From the IMG/VR virus record IMGVR_UViG_3300025872_000250, positions 1 through 27,264 of that record: a DNA stretch of 27,264 nt; one strand, given 5' to 3'. The position numbers and the translations under genes are program-made. Positions 3,729-22,402 of this stretch are shown one piece after another. How positions within the stretch are numbered: the first letter of the stretch is position 1; each line of letters opens with the position of its first letter. The notes under the pieces were generated by a model. The model had not been told where the DNA came from. It was given only the letters and a program-made list of their open reading frames with translations, and made no database searches. The stretch comes from a virus.

Positions 3729-4017
3729 GACTGCTGCGTTGGTCTTCGATGACGGCTAGGCGCACCGTCATGCTCATAACGTTGTTTGCCAGCGCATCCA
3801 ATTTCTCTTGAATGCTGTCGAGTTTTTCTTCAATGCGACTGTGCTTTTCGTTGGTGATGGCGAGGATGACGGCACGGCCCTCGATGGAGCCGACAGCCTC
3901 AAGCGCCGCCCTTGCAACCATCTCGCGACCCTTGAGAATCGCGAACACCAGCGTCGTCAGCCAGCCGGTAGCGGCGATTACCGCAACGACCAGCGTCGCA
4001 TCCACATTCGGCATCAT
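3721..4017 (-). CDS. holin-like one-TM/coiled-coil protein (98 aa)
   Basis: The start was set at ATG 4017 because it forms an ATGA overlap with the transglycosylase stop and is preceded by GGGGGAG at ideal spacing; an upstream GTG-type start at 4038 is less likely. A single TM segment (ATLVVAVIAATGWLTTLVFAIL, about 7-28) is followed by a charged helix with heptad-like spacing (KHSRIEEKLDSIQEKLDALA). N-terminal TM plus coiled coil directly after an endolysin is typical of small holins or haemolysin-XhlA-type proteins. The assignment rests on topology and position only. Confidence 0.6.
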   Translation of the reverse strand: MMPNVDATLVVAVIAATGWLTTLVFAILKGREMVARAALEAVGSIEGRAVILAITNEKHSRIEEKLDSIQEKLDALANNVMSMTVRLAVIEDQRSSRG

Positions 4018-4676
4018 GCTCCCCCAGTGGTCATCCACGCGCCGGAATGACCGGCGAGGTCGTCAGCCTTGTGGCAAATCTTGTCCACATAACCGGGATG
4101 GAACGTAGCTGCGTCGAGCCCCTTGCCCTCCTTGAGGAACTTGGCGACCCGTCCGGCGCCAGCGTTGTACGCCGCAATGACCGCGCGGTCAAGATCAACA
4201 CCAGTGAGGGATGGAGACAACTTATTGAGCGAGCTGCGGGCGCTCTTCAAGATGCCGATGGCATAGGCGCAGCACTTCGCCGGGTCCTTCCACGCACCCG
4301 ACTTGCAGAACTCAAAGTGGGCCTCGTAGTCGATTTGGAACAGGCCGCAACCCCAGCCGTTCGTCGTCGGCACCCAGGCGTCGATGGGACCGGCGAGCTT
4401 CCGCGCAGGGATGCCATCGGGCAGGTTCTTGCGCGCCACGGCGGGGAGTGGGAACTCCTTCATCCGCTTGTCACGGTCGGGCGTGCAGGCTCGAGGAATG
4501 AAGTCACCGGAGCCCTCGGGGCCCTTCGGCTTGAGCGCCTGGCCGAAGTTGCTCTCAGCGTACAGAAATCCCAGCATCAGGTACGGCGAGACACCCGTAC
4601 CGGCGCAGACCTTCTCGACCACGTCGGCAAGGTACTCGGAGCCCTTCGGAAGCGGCGACGCAAGATGCAGGCTCAT
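4014..4676 (-). CDS. lytic transglycosylase endolysin, SLT-type (220 aa)
   Basis: ATG 4676 overlaps the upstream stop as ATGA, so I prefer it to the longer start at 4733. The protein cleaves the MurNAc-GlcNAc bond of peptidoglycan by the soluble-lytic-transglycosylase mechanism. Evidence: YAESNFG with the likely catalytic Glu41, GWGCGLFQID (residues 107-116, the G-x-x-Q motif) and AAYNAGAGRV (169-177). Several Cys residues are scattered in the chain (C24, C64, C110, C124, C135, C136, C201). There is no signal peptide or SAR anchor, so export would need a holin. It heads the lysis cassette; alternatively such a domain could act at DNA entry, but the free-standing size and neighbours favour lysis. 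Confidence 0.85.
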   Translation of the reverse strand: MSLHLASPLPKGSEYLADVVEKVCAGTGVSPYLMLGFLYAESNFGQALKPKGPEGSGDFIPRACTPDRDKRMKEFPLPAVARKNLPDGIPARKLAGPIDAWVPTTNGWGCGLFQIDYEAHFEFCKSGAWKDPAKCCAYAIGILKSARSSLNKLSPSLTGVDLDRAVIAAYNAGAGRVAKFLKEGKGLDAATFHPGYVDKICHKADDLAGHSGAWMTTGGA

Positions 4677-4843
4677 TCGATGACCTCGGTCACAGGTGCG
4701 TGCGCGTTGATCACGTCCAGTGCTTTCGTCCAACCATAGCCAATAGGACCGGCGACAATAATGCCGTCAGTCGAATAGACTTCCATCTCTCCGACGACGG
4801 TTTTCGTGATGGTGCGCCCATAGGCATCAATTTGCGTTTCCAT
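4673..4843 (-). CDS. small conserved-looking protein, unknown (56 aa)
   Basis: ATG 4843 is preceded by GAGGTGATC, a strong ribosome site, eight bases after the stop of the polyglycine fibre gene; the longer in-frame reading is shadow of that fibre. The protein (METQIDAYGRTITKTVVGEM...) looks like a small beta-rich domain with an acidic C-terminus, and its stop overlaps the transglycosylase start. No function was recognised; its position between the last fibre and lysis genes is the only clue. Confidence 0.6.
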   Translation of the reverse strand: METQIDAYGRTITKTVVGEMEVYSTDGIIVAGPIGYGWTKALDVINAHAPVTEVIE

Positions 4844-4850
4844 GATCACC

Positions 4851-7688
4851 TCAGAATCGCGTAATGACAGAACCACCCGACGTGCCCGATGCGCCTGTAG
4901 CAGTTGTGGGTTGTGTCGGTTGACCGGGAACCGTGGTGCGCCCGTCATTTACTGTGGCAATATCACCCACGGTTGCGGCGCCCAAATTGTAGAGAATAAT
5001 GACGCCGCCAGCGCCACCAGCTCCACCGTTGCCGCCTTTGCCGGTGCCGTTCCCGTTGCCACCGTTGCCGCCGTTACCGCCTGAAGCGTCACAGAAGTTG
5101 GTGGCTGAAGGCAAACTGCCCGAGAGCGCATTGTACCCAACGATGAGTACCCCGCCGCCGCCACCGGCTCCTCCACCACCGCCGCCCGTGTTGCCTGATG
5201 ATGTCGTGAAGCCGTTACCCCCATTACCGCCTCCGGCGAAGAACGTCTTGGCCGGTGACGTACCCGTTCGAGCGATGGTGTTGGCCCAGACGACGACGTA
5301 AGAACCACCGGCACCACCACCGCCACCTGCGCCGCCACCGACGCCCGTGTCGCCACCACCGCCTGAACCTCCAGGCCCGCCTTGACCGGCGACGACCAGC
5401 GCGGTACCTCGGAAGATAGGCAGAAGGGGCTGCGGCAGCGAACCGCGAAGGCTCCAACCAAGGGTGTAGTTGCCCGCCGTTCCAGCGTTACCTGCGGCGA
5501 GCGTAGCACCCTGCCCACCCTTGCCAGCGTCGCCGCCAGCACCACCGATACCTGCGGTGACGGCTGCGGAGCTTGCAGAGGCGTTGCCCGCCGAGCCGGA
5601 AACACCTGTAGACCCAATAATGCCGACGTTGCCGGTGTTGCCGATGCCAGATGCCGGAACGCCGCCAGCGGCTCCTGCGCCGCTTGTGGTGCCGGTGGCG
5701 TTGCCGCCGTTGCCCGCGTTCGTCGCGTTCGTGTTGTAGACGCACGGTGAGACGGTGGCAGCCGTGACATCAAGCGTGCCTTTGACCAGAATCGGGTATC
5801 CGGCTGTATTAATACTGCCGCCCGCCGCAATGGTTAGGCTATTGTAGAACATCGGTCGCGTCAGCGTCGTCAAACTGCTGATCGTGACGATTCCATCGGA
5901 ACCATCTCCGAAATACTGAAACAGATCAACTATGTTTGGCGGAAGGTTTGTTCCGTTCGATGCTGAGGTCACTCGACCCTTGGCATCAACAGTAACGGTC
6001 GCAGTAGTGTATGTTCCAGCGGGCGACGGCGACAGATCAGGGATGGTCGGAGTAGATGACACCCATGCGCTGCCGTTGCTGGTAAGCACATCCCCGGCAG
6101 TACCGGGCGAGCTAAGACCCGTGCCGCCATTACCGGCCGGCAGGGTTCCGGTCACCTCGCTTGAGCCGCCAGCAAGGTTGATTGCGGTCGCAGGCGTTTG
6201 GAAGACACCGTTGATGACATGAACCAGACCGGTGCCAGCGACCGAGGGGAAGGTCGTCTGAACGTGCGACGGCGTAGCATCGCCAAACTTGATGGTGATG
6301 GTCTTGTTGGCCGCAGTCGCCTTTGCGCGCAGCTCGATGTAGATGCGGTCAGTGGCGGCAATCGTCGTCTGTGGGAACACCACCGAGGCGATGTACTGAG
6401 CCGTCACCGAGGGGTCGTACAGGCTGACGTCATCCGACGAGGCCAGCAGCGTCGGCGCAGTCGAGCCATCGTACTTATAGACCTCAATCTTGAGAATCGT
6501 CTGACTCGGACCGGTCGAGTTGGACGATGCCCAGACATTGAAGTCCCAGATGCCGGCAGGGATTGCCGTCACACCGGGGTCGATGCTTGGCGTCGAGTCG
6601 GTGACGAATCCTGCCACAAGGTCGTATGTGGACTGAGACAACGTGCCCGAGGTGATGCTTGTCTGCGCGACTTCAGCAACACGTCCAAGCTGATGCGGAA
6701 CAACCGGCGTCGTCGGCAGGCCGGTCGTCGGAGACTGCGCGACCGTGCCGTAGTTGAAACTGTACTGAATGCCGCCACCGCCGGAACCACCGGAGGCAAT
6801 TGCGCCGGGGACCCAGGAGGTGCCGTTGTATTGAAGAATCTGACCATTGCTCGGCGCGCTGCTCGAGACTGACGTGCCTTGAATCTTGGCAACGGTCGGT
6901 GACGGGTAAGTTCCCGACAGGTCACCAGAGGCAGTACCGTCAGGCGGCAGGCTGCTCGGTGTGCCAGACAGGTCGCTGTAAGCACCGGACGTTGCAACCG
7001 CTGCAAGCGACGGCGTCCCCGACAGGTCAGAATACGCGCCCGAAGTGGCGACCGTTGCAAGACCGGAGACCTGAGACGAGCTGATACCAAGAAGCGTCTG
7101 ATCAATGCCGACCGGTGAGCCAACCGAACCGTCACCGGTAATCGGTGACGCGACCGCAACGGTTCCGCCGCCACTACCAGCAGTCGGCTCCCAAGCGGAG
7201 CCATTCCATCCAAGAACATCACCAGACGTTGGAGCCGTATCAAGCACCGGACGCGACTGGATACCGACGACGGTCTGGTAGGTGACCTGACCACCGAGGT
7301 CACCAGCAGGCGAGAATCCGCTGGTCGCACCTGGACCCGTCAGCGTGATGCTTGCGTAGATGGCGCCGCCCGTCCCCGCGCTCGGCGTCCAGACAACGCG
7401 CACAAAGCCATACGCGATGTTCGTAATCTGGATGATGAACTCGCCGTTACCGGCGATGGCGACCGACGCATTCGGGATGTCGGCCCAGTTGGTAGGGACG
7501 AAGTCGCCGGCAGGGAAGATGTTCGGCTGATCGTTCGATGCCTGCAACTTCACCGTGCCGGCGGCTCCGGTAGCGCCCGCAACAGTCACCACAACGCTGC
7601 ACTGCGTCACCTGCGAAGTGACGATGGAATCGCTGGCGAGGCTGTTATCGACAGGCCCAACGATTGCCGCATAGGTGACTGAGTGCAT
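4851..7688 (-). CDS. large tail fibre / receptor-binding protein with polyglycine C-terminal domain (945 aa)
   Basis: ATG 7688 follows TAGGAGT. Residues 1-175 form a beta-rich anchor domain that is clearly homologous to the N-terminus of the next fibre upstream. Residues 129-172 and 255-296 each contain the linker module GDL-x-G...TV-x-x-IQ...P-x-x-G-x-x-L-x-x-NG-x-x-W-x-P, and VATSGAYSDLSGTPS is repeated at about 213-227 and 231-245. Residues 306-482 look like a beta-sandwich. The C-terminal 290 residues are Gly-rich in blocks (about 655-745, 767-796, 818-846, 868-895), separated by hydrophobic strands such as SYVVVWANTI, GVLIVGYNAL and GVIILYNLG. This resembles the polyglycine-helix adhesins seen in T-even gp38-type tips. 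Likely role: host receptor recognition at the virion tail. Confidence 0.8.
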   Translation of the reverse strand: MHSVTYAAIVGPVDNSLASDSIVTSQVTQCSVVVTVAGATGAAGTVKLQASNDQPNIFPAGDFVPTNWADIPNASVAIAGNGEFIIQITNIAYGFVRVVWTPSAGTGGAIYASITLTGPGATSGFSPAGDLGGQVTYQTVVGIQSRPVLDTAPTSGDVLGWNGSAWEPTAGSGGGTVAVASPITGDGSVGSPVGIDQTLLGISSSQVSGLATVATSGAYSDLSGTPSLAAVATSGAYSDLSGTPSSLPPDGTASGDLSGTYPSPTVAKIQGTSVSSSAPSNGQILQYNGTSWVPGAIASGGSGGGGIQYSFNYGTVAQSPTTGLPTTPVVPHQLGRVAEVAQTSITSGTLSQSTYDLVAGFVTDSTPSIDPGVTAIPAGIWDFNVWASSNSTGPSQTILKIEVYKYDGSTAPTLLASSDDVSLYDPSVTAQYIASVVFPQTTIAATDRIYIELRAKATAANKTITIKFGDATPSHVQTTFPSVAGTGLVHVINGVFQTPATAINLAGGSSEVTGTLPAGNGGTGLSSPGTAGDVLTSNGSAWVSSTPTIPDLSPSPAGTYTTATVTVDAKGRVTSASNGTNLPPNIVDLFQYFGDGSDGIVTISSLTTLTRPMFYNSLTIAAGGSINTAGYPILVKGTLDVTAATVSPCVYNTNATNAGNGGNATGTTSGAGAAGGVPASGIGNTGNVGIIGSTGVSGSAGNASASSAAVTAGIGGAGGDAGKGGQGATLAAGNAGTAGNYTLGWSLRGSLPQPLLPIFRGTALVVAGQGGPGGSGGGGDTGVGGGAGGGGGAGGSYVVVWANTIARTGTSPAKTFFAGGGNGGNGFTTSSGNTGGGGGGAGGGGGVLIVGYNALSGSLPSATNFCDASGGNGGNGGNGNGTGKGGNGGAGGAGGVIILYNLGAATVGDIATVNDGRTTVPGQPTQPTTATGASGTSGGSVITRF

Positions 7689-7696
7689 TTTGACTC

Positions 7697-9037
7697 CTAG
7701 TACACTGAAAGAAGCGAACGCTTCCAGACAGGTCCGACAGCGTCAGTACAGGCATAGATGGCATTGGTCGAAATCGCCAGGTCACCAGCAACAGGCGACA
7801 CAGGGAATTGCGAATCAACAACACCATTAGGGTACGGAGCCGATGGGATGCTGATGGTTGCGCCGCTGTAGAGGGACGCCTTGTAGACGCGCACCTCGCT
7901 CATGTAGCCATCGACGCGCAGGTTAGACGTGTCCTGCTGTCCCATCACGCTCACGACCTGACTGTCGAGAGTGGCGGGGATCAGGTTCGTTGTGCCGCAC
8001 GACGTGCCATCGAACCACATCGTCGTCGTACTGCCAGCACGCGAGATGGCAACGTAATGCCAAGTATCAAGAGAAATGGCAGGACTGTAAATCTCAGAGC
8101 CGGCAACGCCGTTGGAGTAGAAGACAAGCTCACCGGGATGAGTCGGGTCCGTCAGGTTGTACAAGAGGACACCGATGCCGCTGCCGCTGGACACATTCCT
8201 CATATCGAACGGTTGGCACCCAAAGCTTCCGGTCTGATTAATTCCGTAGCTTGCAACACGAAAACAGAACTCAATCGTGAAGTCGCTGCTTCCGATGACA
8301 ACGTTGCTGTTGTTGATTTTGACGCTGGCGCCGGTCGAAGAAAAGATTGCGGTAGCATCGCCAGACGGCGGCAGCACCGGAGGAGCCGCAATCGACGCGC
8401 TGCCGCTGACCGTCACCGGAATGTTAAAGAATCCAGAATCCTCAATCGCGGTAGTACCGTGAAGAAGATAAAGACAGTCAGCGTCATCGATGTTGGCGTT
8501 AAACGTGATGTTTCCGCCACCGCCGCCAGCAGCAGGCGCCCACTCGGTGCCGCTCCAGGTGAGCACTTCACCGGAAGACGGTGCCGTCGAGGAGACCGGG
8601 TTGCCTTGGATGCCGATGACCGTCTGCGATGTGACCGTACCGGCGAGGTCACCACCCGGCCAGAAGCCGACACCGGGGCTCGGACCCGTCGTGTCCACCG
8701 TGCAGACGATGACGCCGCCCGTACCTGCCGAGCGCGTATAGACCACTCGGATGAACTGGTACGCGACGTTGGTGATCGGAATCAGCACCTGACCGTTGCC
8801 AGCCACCACCGCGCTGACACTGGGGAGCGTCACCCAGGGCGACGGCGAGGACTCGGTGACCGGAAAGCCGGTGCCCACGTCGTTCGACGCCTGCACGGTT
8901 ACGGTTCCGGCAGCGGTGCCGTCACCTGTCACCGACACGATGACGCTAAACTGCGTCACCTGAGAGACAGGAATGGGCGCACTGGTCAACGAGCTGCCGG
9001 TGCTGCCGGCAATCGCGGTGTAGCTGTTGGAGCGCAT
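7697..9037 (-). CDS. tail fibre with LamG/concanavalin-like C-terminal domain (446 aa)
   Basis: The ATG at 9037 overlaps the previous TAA (TAATG). Residues 1-175 align along their whole length with the anchor domain of the polyglycine fibre (shared landmarks: SQVTQ, VQASND, AGNG, ITN-x-AY, R-V-V, SAGTGG, GW/WSG-x-x-W-x-P). After a GGGGG hinge, residues about 185-415 look like a LamG-type jelly roll: DFTIEFCFRV, DTWHYVAISRAGSTTTMWFDG and MSEVRVYKASLY are classic strands of that fold, which often binds glycans. The stop TAG lies inside the ribosome site of the next fibre. Role: a second receptor-binding or side fibre, inferred. Confidence 0.8.
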   Translation of the reverse strand: MRSNSYTAIAGSTGSSLTSAPIPVSQVTQFSVIVSVTGDGTAAGTVTVQASNDVGTGFPVTESSPSPWVTLPSVSAVVAGNGQVLIPITNVAYQFIRVVYTRSAGTGGVIVCTVDTTGPSPGVGFWPGGDLAGTVTSQTVIGIQGNPVSSTAPSSGEVLTWSGTEWAPAAGGGGGNITFNANIDDADCLYLLHGTTAIEDSGFFNIPVTVSGSASIAAPPVLPPSGDATAIFSSTGASVKINNSNVVIGSSDFTIEFCFRVASYGINQTGSFGCQPFDMRNVSSGSGIGVLLYNLTDPTHPGELVFYSNGVAGSEIYSPAISLDTWHYVAISRAGSTTTMWFDGTSCGTTNLIPATLDSQVVSVMGQQDTSNLRVDGYMSEVRVYKASLYSGATISIPSAPYPNGVVDSQFPVSPVAGDLAISTNAIYACTDAVGPVWKRSLLSVY

Positions 9038-12975: not shown

Positions 12976-15432
12976 CTAAGGCAATTCGCGCATACGGCTT
13001 CGAATGTTACTAGTAGCAGGCGAACTTGGCGCAACCGCAGGCGCCGGAACGGTGGGAGCGGCGGCAGACGCCGGCAATTCCAGTTCAGCAGGCGCAAACT
13101 TGAGTGTTGGCATTGCCGGGAGCGCGCGACCAACAAGCTTGGCCTCTTTGGTCTTCAACTTCCAGAGGCCGTACTTAGCAGCATCCTGCTCTCGAGCGCT
13201 ATCTGCCTGTGCGTGCTCCATGATGTATTCATCACGCGCACGAACTGTTTCCTCAACAAGGCGACGAATGCCAGTCGCAGGAGGCACATCGCCAATAAAT
13301 TCTTTGAGGAATGCAACAAAACCAAACGGATTTGCGATAGCTTCTTTGAGTTGTTCTTTCGCCACCTTGGAAACGGCTCGATTGTAACCGAAAGCTTGCG
13401 GAAAGTTCTCAATCTGAAGCGCCAAGCTAGACAGGGCTCGCTGCCGGTCTGGGCTCAAAACGTTAATTGTTTCGCCAGGCTTAAGAGACTCAAGGTCTTT
13501 TGCGGCCTCCTCAAGCGACTTTACCGCGAAATTGCGACGCGCAACTTCATCCCGAACCGCTTTCATGCCGGTATCGCTGGAGGCTTTTACTGGCACATCA
13601 TCAACAGCAAAAACTCGACCAGTTTCCCACTTTGTTTGAGCAAAAGACGGACCCTTATCGACAACAGGCTTTGGTGCCGCAGGCGCACGAACAACGGTAG
13701 GCCGACTGGCGCGAGTCTGCGCGGCCTTGCCAAGCATCTCAAGGTATTCTTCCTTTGAGATGGTCGCCGTCAGGCGCTCAAGGTCGAGTGCAAGCTGCCG
13801 CTCAATCTGTGACTGAAGCAACCGAACCTTGGGACCAATTTTGCCTAGGTCTTGAGTCGAAGCAATCTTGTCGAGGGCGACCTGAAGCAACGCTTTGTTG
13901 TCCATGCGGACAAGTTCGTCGGCAGCTTCGGCGCTCTTCAATGCGTCCTTGTAACGCGACCACTTAGAGTCACGCTTGCGCTTCTGCTCCTCAAGGTCAC
14001 GCTCCATGGCGTTATTGAAGGCGGTGAGAGCATAATTGGGCGTGTTGGCGTAACCGGAAAGGAACCCGCCGACCACAAGCGAGGCAATGCTGAAGATGCT
14101 CTTGGCGAGACCCTGTGAGCTGCCTTCGCCACCAAGGAACGACTTCAGATCATCTGCCGCTTCGGCATCTTTGCGGTACGAGTCGATGTGTGAACGAATG
14201 TCGCGACGCGTTTCTTCATCCTTCTTCGCCTGCTCCGCGAGCGCCAACTCTTTCATGCGAACAGCATCAAGGGTTGCAGCCTGAGCGGCCTGCTCTGCCT
14301 CTCCCTGGGCCTTGAGCGCGTTGGCCCCGTCAACAGCAGCAGAGATAAACGCTTCCTGCAACTTGGGATTATCTTGCCGCAACAGCGAGAACACGGGCGC
14401 ATTTGCCACATCAGGAAGCGCGACTGCGGCAATCTCAGGCGAAGTACCAAGAATGCTTGCGACCACATCCTTGATAGGCGTCGCAGGCGGCAACTTCTTG
14501 GCGACATCAACCAACTGTTCAGCGGTCAGCGGGCGAAGAACCGGTGCAGGCGCAGGCGTAGGCGCGGTCGGCACCGGAGCAGCAACGGCAGCAGCGGGCG
14601 CTACCGGAACCGCAACAGGCGCTGCGGGCACCGGAGTCTGCGCGAGGGTCGGAGCCGCAAGAGGCGGCGCAAGCAGGCCTGGCTGCGCCAAGAACCTCCC
14701 CATAGGGACCGATGCGGGCGCGACCGGCGCAAGCGGTCCGACGGTCTCCTGCGACGTAATCGTAACCGGCGGCGCAGGCGTCACATCGACAGGGGCCGGG
14801 GCAAGCCGTTCCTCAATAATCGGGACAGGACGACGCGACGCGACGGGAGCGGGCGCGGGTGCAGGCGCAGCCTCTTCCGCAGGAGCCGGCGCTTCAGCCT
14901 TAGGCGCAGCAACCTCGGCGGGCTTCTTAGCCTCACTTTTGACGGCCGGAGGCGGGGCGGCGGGAGCAACAGGAGCGGTAGGTGCAGCAACGTTAACGTT
15001 GATTACCGGCGGCGGCGTGACCGGCGCAGGAGCGGGCGTAGCAGCTTGACGGGCAGCTTCCTGACGCAGCCGCTCAAGGTCAGCCGCTGCCTGCTGTTCA
15101 GCGGTTTGCGGTACACCGGTAGCTTCAGTAGCGCGAACTGCGCGACGACCAGTCAAGGGCACGGCGGCCTCTTCCTCAACGGGTTGCGCGACGGGAGTGG
15201 CAGCCATTGCGGCATCAACATCGGGTTGACGCGCAATATCCGCAGGCAGCACCTCACCGCCCTCTTCAAACTTCTGAACCTCGCCACCCTGCGCGTACCG
15301 ACGCAGACGCCCCAACATTCCCTGAGACAGCGGCTTCTTCGCGATGGTGATGGTCTTGCCACCGGGACTGACGACCTTGAAGTGCGTCGAGTGCTCAAAC
15401 ACCTGACGCAGGCGCGGCTTCGGAATCCTCAT
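12976..15432 (-). CDS. Pro/Ala-rich virion protein, probable internal/ejection protein (818 aa)
   Basis: ATG 15432 is preceded by AAGGAGTAGACC, where the TAG is the previous gene's stop. The N-terminal 65 residues are basic and contain YAQGGEVQKFEEGGEV. Residues about 130-300 are an extended low-complexity Pro/Ala/Val linker. A charged coiled coil covers about 370-430, followed by a hydrophobic stretch (AKSIFSIASLVVGGFLSGYA, about 443-461) and then NYALTAFNNAMERDLEEQ, a pattern I associate from memory with internal proteins of other tailed phages. The C-terminal half is helical. It is probably a component of the same ejection machinery as its neighbours. Confidence 0.7.
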   Translation of the reverse strand: MRIPKPRLRQVFEHSTHFKVVSPGGKTITIAKKPLSQGMLGRLRRYAQGGEVQKFEEGGEVLPADIARQPDVDAAMAATPVAQPVEEEAAVPLTGRRAVRATEATGVPQTAEQQAAADLERLRQEAARQAATPAPAPVTPPPVINVNVAAPTAPVAPAAPPPAVKSEAKKPAEVAAPKAEAPAPAEEAAPAPAPAPVASRRPVPIIEERLAPAPVDVTPAPPVTITSQETVGPLAPVAPASVPMGRFLAQPGLLAPPLAAPTLAQTPVPAAPVAVPVAPAAAVAAPVPTAPTPAPAPVLRPLTAEQLVDVAKKLPPATPIKDVVASILGTSPEIAAVALPDVANAPVFSLLRQDNPKLQEAFISAAVDGANALKAQGEAEQAAQAATLDAVRMKELALAEQAKKDEETRRDIRSHIDSYRKDAEAADDLKSFLGGEGSSQGLAKSIFSIASLVVGGFLSGYANTPNYALTAFNNAMERDLEEQKRKRDSKWSRYKDALKSAEAADELVRMDNKALLQVALDKIASTQDLGKIGPKVRLLQSQIERQLALDLERLTATISKEEYLEMLGKAAQTRASRPTVVRAPAAPKPVVDKGPSFAQTKWETGRVFAVDDVPVKASSDTGMKAVRDEVARRNFAVKSLEEAAKDLESLKPGETINVLSPDRQRALSSLALQIENFPQAFGYNRAVSKVAKEQLKEAIANPFGFVAFLKEFIGDVPPATGIRRLVEETVRARDEYIMEHAQADSAREQDAAKYGLWKLKTKEAKLVGRALPAMPTLKFAPAELELPASAAAPTVPAPAVAPSSPATSNIRSRMRELP

Positions 15433-20675: not shown

Positions 20676-21389
20676 CTAGAACCCAACGCGCTTGACGTTG
20701 ACGATGATGGAGGGGTCGAGCGGACGTGCAGGTGGCCCGACGACAGCGGGCACAGCCGTCAGCGAGGGTGTTGCAGCAACCGTGTTGGCGGCGAACATGA
20801 ACTCAACGTATTGGTTCGCCTCAAGCGACAGGATGAAACTGTTGTACGGGATGTTGGCACCGTTGTTGTTGCCGAGTTCGATGAGGCTGGACGTATCGTC
20901 AACGTCAGCACCGTTGATGCGAATCCAGTTGTAGATTTCGGTCTTGGTGCCACCGGAGAGCGTCAGTTGCGCCGAGAAGGACAGCTCGTAGACACCAGCA
21001 GTAGCGACCGTGAAACGCGTCAGGTTCGTGCCGTTGCTCTCAACCGACACGCCCTTCGACAGCGAGACGACCTCGGCAGCAGCGGCCAGCGGCGTGCCTG
21101 CGCTGAACAATGGGATGGTCTGCGTTACGCGGCTGACGAACGAACCGTAAACGCTCGGCGTCGGAGTCCACTGCGAGCCATTGTAGACCAGCGACTCACC
21201 ATAGGCTGGTGCGACATTGCTGACAGGGTATCCTTGCAACTTTGCAACGGTAGGGCTCTCAAGCGGTCCCGACAGGTCACCCTTCACGCCGCGCAGGATA
21301 GGGTTCAGCGCAGACGCAATCTGATCCTGTACTCGATTGAGCGAGTCGTCTTCGCTGAAGATGCGAGAGAGTTGCTTGAGGGTAGCCAT
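20676..21389 (-). CDS. short fibre with C1q/TNF-like C-terminal domain (237 aa)
   Basis: ATG 21389 overlaps the previous stop as TAATG; the longer in-frame reading runs into the adaptor gene. Residues 1-35 are a helical attachment segment. Residues about 37-77 carry the fibre linker module (GDLSGPLESPTVAKLQGYPV...LVYNGSQWTP). The C-terminal 130 residues contain TRFTVATAGVYELSFSAQLT, NWIRINGADV and SFILSLEANQYVEFMFAANT, the strand pattern of C1q/TNF-like jelly rolls that often end phage fibres. The chain ends IIVNVKRVGF, a typical closing strand. Likely role: trimeric fibre or head/tail decoration that binds the host surface. Confidence 0.75.
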   Translation of the reverse strand: MATLKQLSRIFSEDDSLNRVQDQIASALNPILRGVKGDLSGPLESPTVAKLQGYPVSNVAPAYGESLVYNGSQWTPTPSVYGSFVSRVTQTIPLFSAGTPLAAAAEVVSLSKGVSVESNGTNLTRFTVATAGVYELSFSAQLTLSGGTKTEIYNWIRINGADVDDTSSLIELGNNNGANIPYNSFILSLEANQYVEFMFAANTVAATPSLTAVPAVVGPPARPLDPSIIVNVKRVGF

Positions 21390-22402
21390 TAGGGGATGCC
21401 ACCGCCACCACCGAAGCCGTTGCCAAACGGCCAGGTGCCGTTCGTCCACTGCACGTCAGCAACGGTCGCAGGCGAGCCGGCATCGCGGTTCTCAGCGGCA
21501 GCCTCAATGCGTTTGATGAGCGCCTGCTTCTGGAACTGAAGCACCGTCGTGTCCGATTCTTCCTTCTGCGCGGCCTTGATGGCGGCATCGGTGATGACGT
21601 ACTCCAGCCAACCGGACACACCATCGGCGGTGATGGGGTCGCCACTGATGGAGGCCGCTGAAAGCTGAAGGCGAGTTGTCACACCAGGCGTGCCGGCGGC
21701 ATTCATCACCGAAAGCGAGATGGGCGACACGCCAACCAAAGACAGCGTGATGACGTTGCCTGATGCTTCTGCTGTTACGCCGAATGTGGATTCATTGGCA
21801 GTAATGTATGCCGCAAGATTCGATGCGGTCTCAATAACCGTGCTGCCAAGATAATCTGTGGCAAGAATGCTTTCGCTTCCGATATTGATGGTGTCGTAGA
21901 AGGTCGGCTGCTCCGCAATCGTCAGCGTCACCGGGTCAGCCAGCGGCTTGAGCCTCGGGATGTACCAGATGCGGATGGTCTGGCCGGTCTGCGGGGACGG
22001 TGTAAACCACAGTTTGTTGGCGCTCAGACGGTAGCGGAGATTCGTCACGCCAATCCACGTCTGCACGTTTGCGGTCGAGTACCGATTGCGCTCTGCCAGC
22101 GTGAAGGGACGCAGCGAGACGTAACCATCGGGACCAGCGGAAATCTGGAGGTCTACGCCGAGAAGCTTGAAGAAGTCCTCGGGCAGGTCATAACGCGACT
22201 GGTTCCCGACAAGCGAGAACGAGTACTGCGTCATGTAGTAGTCGTTGCCGTACTTCTGCACCAACAGGTCGTACAGTTCAAAGTACGAGGCGTTGATGTA
22301 GCTGTTGAACTCCTGGTCCGTGACGAACGTGGAGTTCACCATGTCGGCGCGCTGACGGGTTGCAAGACGCAGCTCGGGCAGCGTCATCACAGGATAGGTC
22401 AT
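21389..22402 (-). CDS. head-tail adaptor / tubular tail protein A-type (337 aa)
   Basis: ATG 22402 is preceded by GGAGACGCG. Residues 26-85 (FVTDQEFNSYINASYFELYD...YDLPEDFFKLLGVD) and 138-155 (TGQTIRIWYIPRLKPL) match the podoviral adaptor family that joins the portal to the nozzle. Family members then usually continue straight into the helix seen here as SGWLEYVITDAAIKAAQKEESD (263-284). Here about 100 residues (157-256) are inserted, reading like a beta domain (TASNLAAYITANESTFGVTA, GNVITLSLVG), and the coding DNA for it is AT-richer. The protein ends in a Gly-rich tail. Confidence 0.75.
   Translation of the reverse strand: MTYPVMTLPELRLATRQRADMVNSTFVTDQEFNSYINASYFELYDLLVQKYGNDYYMTQYSFSLVGNQSRYDLPEDFFKLLGVDLQISAGPDGYVSLRPFTLAERNRYSTANVQTWIGVTNLRYRLSANKLWFTPSPQTGQTIRIWYIPRLKPLADPVTLTIAEQPTFYDTINIGSESILATDYLGSTVIETASNLAAYITANESTFGVTAEASGNVITLSLVGVSPISLSVMNAAGTPGVTTRLQLSAASISGDPITADGVSGWLEYVITDAAIKAAQKEESDTTVLQFQKQALIKRIEAAAENRDAGSPATVADVQWTNGTWPFGNGFGGGGGIP
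21635..21934 (-). other. inserted beta domain inside the adaptor gene
   Basis: This stretch encodes adaptor residues about 157-256. Sampled 60-base lines are 45-47% GC inside and 58-61% outside. The protein text (DTINIGSESI, TASNLAAYITANESTFGVTA) is Ser/Thr/Ala-rich beta material unlike the helical adaptor framework. It reads as a surface domain inserted into a loop. Confidence 0.45.

Follow-up and report, generated by a model that had tools for sequence, protein, structure and literature searches.

The C-terminal end of the tail fiber P0001, encoded in the window (the whole analyzed stretch of viral DNA, 27,264 nucleotides), forms a module of ~360 residues (residues 588–945 of 945) that, in view of its relationship to hafunavirus adhesins, its position and the behavior of its loops, is most likely a receptor-binding tip. 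Positions 4958–5730, where an earlier note had placed a polyglycine receptor-binding domain, correspond to residues 653–911 of the P0001 minus-strand ORF (7688..4851). This region is probably a C-terminal receptor-binding adhesin module with a Gly-rich, polyglycine-II (PGII)-like scaffold and variable host-contact loops, and it is probably exchanged as a cassette, in part of its family along with a small gene. The tip lies at the distal end of the tail fiber, that is to say, at the C-terminal end of a fiber ORF with stem homologs.

The module starts at residue ~588 (window position ~5927), earlier than had been noted, with the non-Gly signature FGDGSDG..TTLTRPMFYNSLTI, and all of its parts are on the minus strand. 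The tip base (DLFQYFGDGSDGIVTI..TLTRPMFYNSLTI..ILVKGTLDV; 5745..5927) comprises β-strands that are conserved in the family alignment (A3, described below) and are present in the AlphaFold model. The base is followed by a Gly/Ala/Ser/Thr-rich variable stretch (residues 649–712; 5553..5744), which was modeled with low confidence and belongs to a highly divergent region (residues 649–767). Four dense Gly blocks separated by hydrophobic segments, as the earlier note had described, were found at residues 713–740, 764–795, 819–846, and 870–895. Block 1 (5469..5552) was delimited by Gly composition. Block 2 (5304..5399) was recognized by composition and periodicity, and its apical turn DTGVG is hypervariable in relatives. 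It is followed by a strand pair with a basal turn (SYVVVWANTIARTGTSPAKTFFA, residues 796–818, including SYVVVWANT..TFFA; 5235..5303), which contains the AlphaFold strand of domain residues 210–219 and has 0 of 23 positions changed between the two related loci L014 and L100. Block 3 (5151..5234) is a hairpin, GGGNGGNG-FTTSSGNT-GGGGGGAGGGGG, recognized by periodicity and by a profile match to the PGII region of Obg. The next strand pair and basal turn (VLIVGYNALSGSLPSATNFCDAS, residues 847–869, including VLIVGYN..FCDAS; 5082..5150) contains the strand of domain residues 260–269, with 1 of 21 positions changed in the same pair. Block 4 (5004..5081), delimited by periodicity and composition, is composed of GGN/GGA triplets, and the module closes with the strand VIILYN (residues 896–901; domain residues 309–314) and a C-terminal tail (4854..5003), of which the part past domain residue 320 has low confidence.

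The densest 240 residues of P0001 contain 89 Gly, compared with a mean of 55 and a maximum of 75 in 5000 shuffles of the protein. A PGII helix has three residues per turn, and a spacing of three between non-Gly residues is therefore expected. Within the Gly blocks of the window, 56% of the pairs of non-Gly residues are separated by multiples of three, compared with 35% in shuffled blocks (z = 4.8), and the same spacing was found over 21 relatives (z = 16). The Gly region, which had been called unusually long, is so when compared with S16 gp38 but is ordinary in its own family (248–367 residues in the complete Gly-rich members). Pro-rich ORFs on the plus strand of this region were discounted, since they only mirror the Gly codons in antisense.

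The tip module had no match of its own in Pfam, PHROG, NCBIfam, or the PDB, but was found at ~78 loci in viral contigs by a search with its 62-residue base followed by alignment searches. A 358-aa tip query retrieved no relatives in viral contigs and a whole-ORF query retrieved stem relatives only, as Gly-rich sequence seeds a search poorly and is masked by BLAST; cutting the query to the Gly-poor 62-residue base recovered the tip relatives. The scan of genome contigs gave no confirmed relative of the tip, and nothing was found for it by tblastn in plasmids. At the 78 loci, the module forms either the C-terminus of fibers with unrelated stems or nearly the whole of a ~200–270-aa protein. The same tip thus occurs on other stems, and the stem of the window occurs with other tips, which indicates that the tip is a swappable module; its fusion to many unrelated stems is, at the level of sequence, new. 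The alignment of 22 sequences (A3) reveals the base FG(D/S)GSDGxVTI..TLTRxMxYxNLT followed by an alternation of Gly blocks and strands, both of which are present in the window. Low-Gly members (alignment A4) have the same base and strands with little glycine, and the extension slots of L024, L034, L064, L078, and L085 contain Tyr/Asn-rich (NNAPTYTYTAG), collagen-like (GASGAQ), and His-rich (HHHTNPHHH) repeats. Because of these members, the extension slot seems to be a general one that Gly hairpins are one way of filling. The family phrog_13336, of unknown function, matches 10 of the 22 Gly-rich and 6 of the 8 low-Gly members; the window tip, unlike this part of its family, has no match to it.

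The AlphaFold model of the tip, computed from the alignment of 22 sequences, had a pTM of 0.73 and a mean pLDDT of 66. The base strands (domain residues 13–53) were confident (block pLDDT 85–95), the three later strands frame the Gly blocks, and the Gly segments (domain residues 190–320) were neither helix nor strand, with a block pLDDT mostly of 69–90. Confidence was low in domain residues ~88–178, the first Gly-poor stretch, and in the tail after residue 320. Structure prediction thus gave a β-strand base with long Gly extensions, but not with confidence over domain residues ~88–178. Apart from this low-confidence stretch, neither of the outcomes that the earlier note had named as contrary to its idea (disorder with no stacked helices, or conserved loops with a variable framework) was observed. 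Foldseek comparison of the model with the PDB gave no significant match, and the BFVD contained a matching fold in an uncultured Caudovirales protein (E = 1e-18, TM 0.68). The predicted folds of "collagen-like" proteins of Orpheovirus and Pandoravirus dulcis in the BFVD (A0A2I2L5F3, A0A2I2L380, and S4VX73) also matched the tip (E 1e-10 to 1e-13), and a similar scaffold therefore occurs in eukaryotic viruses.

A profile of the Gly/strand pattern retrieved Obg GTPases from the PDB sequences, namely human MTG2 (E = 0.003), Bacillus subtilis Obg (1lnz, E = 0.01), Escherichia coli ObgE (5m04/4csu, E = 0.03–0.05), and Thermus thermophilus Obg (1udx, E = 0.47), whereas a shuffled-sequence control profile retrieved nothing at E ≤ 5. 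These matches are in the same register as the tip (GGxGGxG-loop-GGxGGxGG-VVL). Since other matches of the real profile include GGGGS-type linkers, we regard the Obg matches alone as meaningful. Six left-handed type-II Gly helices are packed together in the Obg fold (PMC3775756, PMC8409303), and we take the Obg profile match as the best evidence for PGII geometry short of coordinates. Pfam-type domain scans detected no GTPase domain in P0001, which sets it apart from the Obg family with its G domain.

In the A3 family, the Gly blocks have an entropy of 1.36 and few gaps, the strands are almost gapless, and the remaining columns have an entropy of 1.98 and 30% gaps. Hypervariability was measured in the related pair L014/L100, the closest pair, rather than in the window's own close relatives: in the first two hairpin apices 11 of 13 positions were changed, compared with 1 of 44 in the strands and basal turns (Fisher p = 5e-9). 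The ratio of amino-acid-changing to silent codon differences was 11:1 in these apices and 1:16 in wider framework segments with the Gly runs included, and the framework is, by all appearances, under purifying selection. The third apex had 1 of 8 positions changed, and other pairs followed a weaker trend. As the apical loops have varied while the framework still carries silent changes, the expectation of variable loops on a conserved framework is borne out for this pair. The variable elements are the apical turns of the hairpins and the 649–767 region, which is highly divergent among relatives, whereas the hydrophobic segments between the Gly blocks are conserved strands and basal turns; not all of the intervening segments are variable loops. 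In a sister phage (L013), the major capsid protein (MCP), portal, and SLT protein are 83%, 82%, and 71% identical to those of the window, and the tip is ~42–44% identical. Periodicity, the Obg profile, the AlphaFold layout, and loop variability together are consistent with a Gly-helix scaffold bearing variable loops at the fiber tip, in which the PGII geometry is the conjectural element.

A small gene of 56 aa (METQIDAYGRTI..INAHAP; 4673..4843, minus strand) starts 7 bp past the fiber stop. Homologs directly follow the tip in L012, L013, and L014, with more distant ones in L025 and L067. A scan of viral contigs with the small protein found seven loci, and at all seven it directly follows a tip of the same family, although four of these recover the queries themselves or a duplicate of a query, which leaves L098/L099 and L100 as the only independent lineages. 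The genes beyond the small gene differ between phages, which makes the tip its constant neighbor; the small gene, for its part, follows only some members of the tip family. Such a 56-residue gene, placed immediately after the fiber and found again next to tips of this kind in phages that are not related, is, as far as the compared loci go, a new feature, and the literature examined contained no description of this recurrent partner gene. The small protein was modeled as a compact ββββα domain (pLDDT 88.5) with no significant Foldseek match in the PDB and with weak, inconsistent matches only in Pfam and PHROG scans, and hhalign indicated no homology to the small neighbor gene of the hafunaviruses. 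By analogy with gp25 of Pam3 (PMC9608196), we infer that it may help the repetitive tip to fold, or may otherwise serve the tip.

The tail-fiber gene P0001 (4851..7688, minus strand; identified as an ORF and by its translation) encodes, in addition to the C-terminal Gly-rich tip, an N-terminal anchor (residues 1–175; 7164..7688, minus strand) and a stem domain (residues ~300–505; 6174..6791, minus strand) that is found in other phages with different tips. Residues 263–503 match other phage fibers at 48–57%, and loci L003–L008 have this stem with the Gly tip absent. The whole fiber had no match in Pfam, PHROG, NCBIfam, or the PDB. A second fiber gene (7697..9037, minus strand; 446 aa) precedes P0001; pairwise alignment revealed the same N-terminal anchor, and its tip is a Laminin_G_3 (ConA-like) domain (PF13385, E = 2.6e-11). 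With two fibers that share one anchor and differ in tip, receptor-binding tips of two kinds may be present on the phage. An SLT-domain protein (4014–4733), whose SLT match was just under the Pfam cut-off, is encoded downstream of P0001. The portal and the adaptor match Pfam SU10 models, the portal also matches a P22 model just under the cut-off, and the capsid protein matches SU10_MCP; from these matches, the window looks like an SU10/P22-type podophage. At E ≤ 1e-5, neither its MCP nor its portal had a relative in the isolate phage collection.

Three other loci of the window were observed. A C-5 cytosine DNA methylase (PF00145; 202–1678, plus strand) is split into an N-terminal part (202–1017) and a C-terminal part (863–1678), which are overlapping ORFs in different frames; this suggests a frameshift, a sequencing error or a decayed gene. 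The product of 20676–21449 (minus strand) had a weak C-terminal match to BclA_C (TNF/C1q-like; E = 1.2e-5, under the Pfam cut-off) and is possibly a third fiber or a head-decoration protein. An 818-aa virion-region protein (12976–15432, minus strand) contains a very long Ala/Pro/Val-rich low-complexity stretch and had no Pfam match.

We propose that a short β-strand base carries the long Gly-rich extensions, which would pair as PGII-like helices and, held together by main-chain hydrogen bonds, make up a rigid scaffold. At the distal end of each hairpin, the turn would be free to vary and would contact the host receptor. The tip would move as a cassette from one phage or stem to another, unrelated one. 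In some family members the small downstream gene would travel with it, and the product of this gene may aid folding of the repetitive tip or otherwise serve it. A broader version is conceivable, though we lean against it: the FGDGSDG tip might form, with the small protein encoded after it, a two-gene adhesin cassette that can be transferred. In this version, the β base would be universal, with slots that accept PGII hairpins as well as collagen-like, His-rich or Tyr/Asn-rich repeats, and the cassette would pass between bacterial and archaeal tailed viruses that are not related to one another, with related folds occurring in giant viruses. The 56–74-aa protein might then be a minimal chaperone dedicated to the tip, or a cap for it, with a new fold.

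The Gly region could instead be a structural spacer or flexible coat of the collagen or PE_PGRS kind, with binding located elsewhere on the fiber or on the LamG fiber. The low pLDDT in part of the region, the adjoining fiber with its ConA-like LamG tip, and the "collagen-like" Orpheovirus and Pandoravirus proteins among the BFVD matches agree with a spacer, but the Gly region is C-terminal, its repeats are GGX with long Gly runs rather than G-X-Y, amino-acid-changing and silent differences contrast between loops and framework, and the module is common to hafunavirus adhesins that have been tied to host range. We consider a spacer unlikely. A role as an autochaperone or assembly domain for fiber trimerization, rather than in binding, is considerably less probable. 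The C-terminal modules of several phage fibers are intramolecular chaperones (PMC9608196), and the low-Gly members keep the base without PGII; against this, no cleavage motif was seen, hypervariable apical loops would be unexpected in a chaperone, and the small gene beside the tip is itself a candidate chaperone.

Another reading, that 9-bp tandem duplications generated Gly-X repeats of little structural meaning, seems to us very improbable, even more so than an assembly domain. Short 9-bp tandem repeats are present at 5003–5081, both 9-bp and 12-bp tandem repeats occur inside the Gly blocks, and the Gly codon preferences of the tip are the same as in the rest of the fiber gene. The 9-bp repeats could contribute part of the triplet signal of the window but explain the family-wide signal less easily, and low-complexity expansion accords poorly with the conservation of Gly columns, block positions, and strand pattern across ~22 divergent sequences (A3) and with the purifying selection on the framework. 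A receptor-binding tip remains the preferred reading.

Gly-rich PGII adhesins are mainly known from T-even phages, one cyanophage, and haloarchaeal viruses. Compared with these, the present module appears distinct and widespread among PGII-type adhesin tips, and the PGII-type design would be far commoner than known; it has been missed by annotation because it has no Pfam model and is hidden by low-complexity filters. The FGDGSDG/TLTRDMYYNNLT base provides a sequence handle by which putative receptor-binding tips could be found in phages that have not been cultured. The positions at which the loops change are known exactly, which makes predictions of host contact testable, and with the small downstream gene a new candidate emerges for a folding factor specific to the tip.

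The tip resembles several known Gly-rich systems. The Obg fold of Obg/CgtA GTPases has GGxGGxG-loop-GGxGGxGG-VVL hairpins between strands, with known PGII helices and a profile match to the tip, but Obg/CgtA is a cellular ribosome-assembly GTPase and not an adhesin; common origin or convergence could account for the likeness. The GGX-rich repeats of mycobacterial PE_PGRS proteins have been modeled as a PGII sandwich; they are likened to the tip by description, and the PE domain is absent from the window. The gp38 adhesins of the T-even phages S16 and PP01 combine a β base, a PGII sandwich, and hypervariable distal loops, as in our model of the window tip (PMC6851490, PMC12892980), but gp38 is a separate adhesin on trimeric gp37 with a 73-residue PGII domain, whereas the window tip is fused in a 945-aa fiber. 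Between the window tip and S16 gp38 no sequence homology was detectable (hhalign probability 0.6), so the gp38-type adhesin suggested earlier holds as a look-alike in design and not as a homolog by sequence.

A Gly tip within the fiber chain, which had been presented as a novelty, is already found in Pam3 gp24, a Gly-rich receptor-binding tip with a stacked Gly lattice at the C-terminus of its fiber (PMC9608196). Pam3 also encodes a specific chaperone, gp25, for the gp24 tip (PMC9608196). The two systems differ in that (i) gp24 has a TNF-like β base and 49 Gly in 125 residues, whereas the window tip has the FGDGSDG base, and searches of the PDB by sequence and by fold gave no match for the window tip; and (ii) gp25 has 162 aa and a helical domain, whereas the small protein of the window has 56 aa.

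The base consensus, with E values reaching 2e-4, matched the "putative adhesin" of the Halorubrum viruses HRTV-15, HRTV-16, and HRTV-9 and the corresponding genes of HF2, Hardycor2, and Serpecor1 at 62–68% identity over 34 residues. The window sequence itself matched the hafunavirus adhesins weakly (HRTV-7 gp33, E = 0.4), and the hhalign value of 98% between the window family and these adhesins covers mainly Gly-rich columns. The Gly-rich adhesins of hafunaviruses, which are haloarchaeal tailed viruses, were reported as a host-range determinant by Liu et al. (PMC8651126), and a later study with Haloferax hosts found no clear correlation (PMC9229481). The hafunavirus adhesins (HRTV-15 gp33, HRTV-9 gp32, and HRTV-7 gp33) share with the window tip the N-terminal β signature and the alternation of Gly blocks with VIVLVSE-type strands. 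These three genes and that of Hardycor2 are located just after the tail-fiber gene, and a small gene adjoins the adhesin, as in the window. The hafunavirus adhesins, however, are stand-alone proteins of ~330 aa from viruses of archaeal hosts, whereas the window tip is fused to its fiber.
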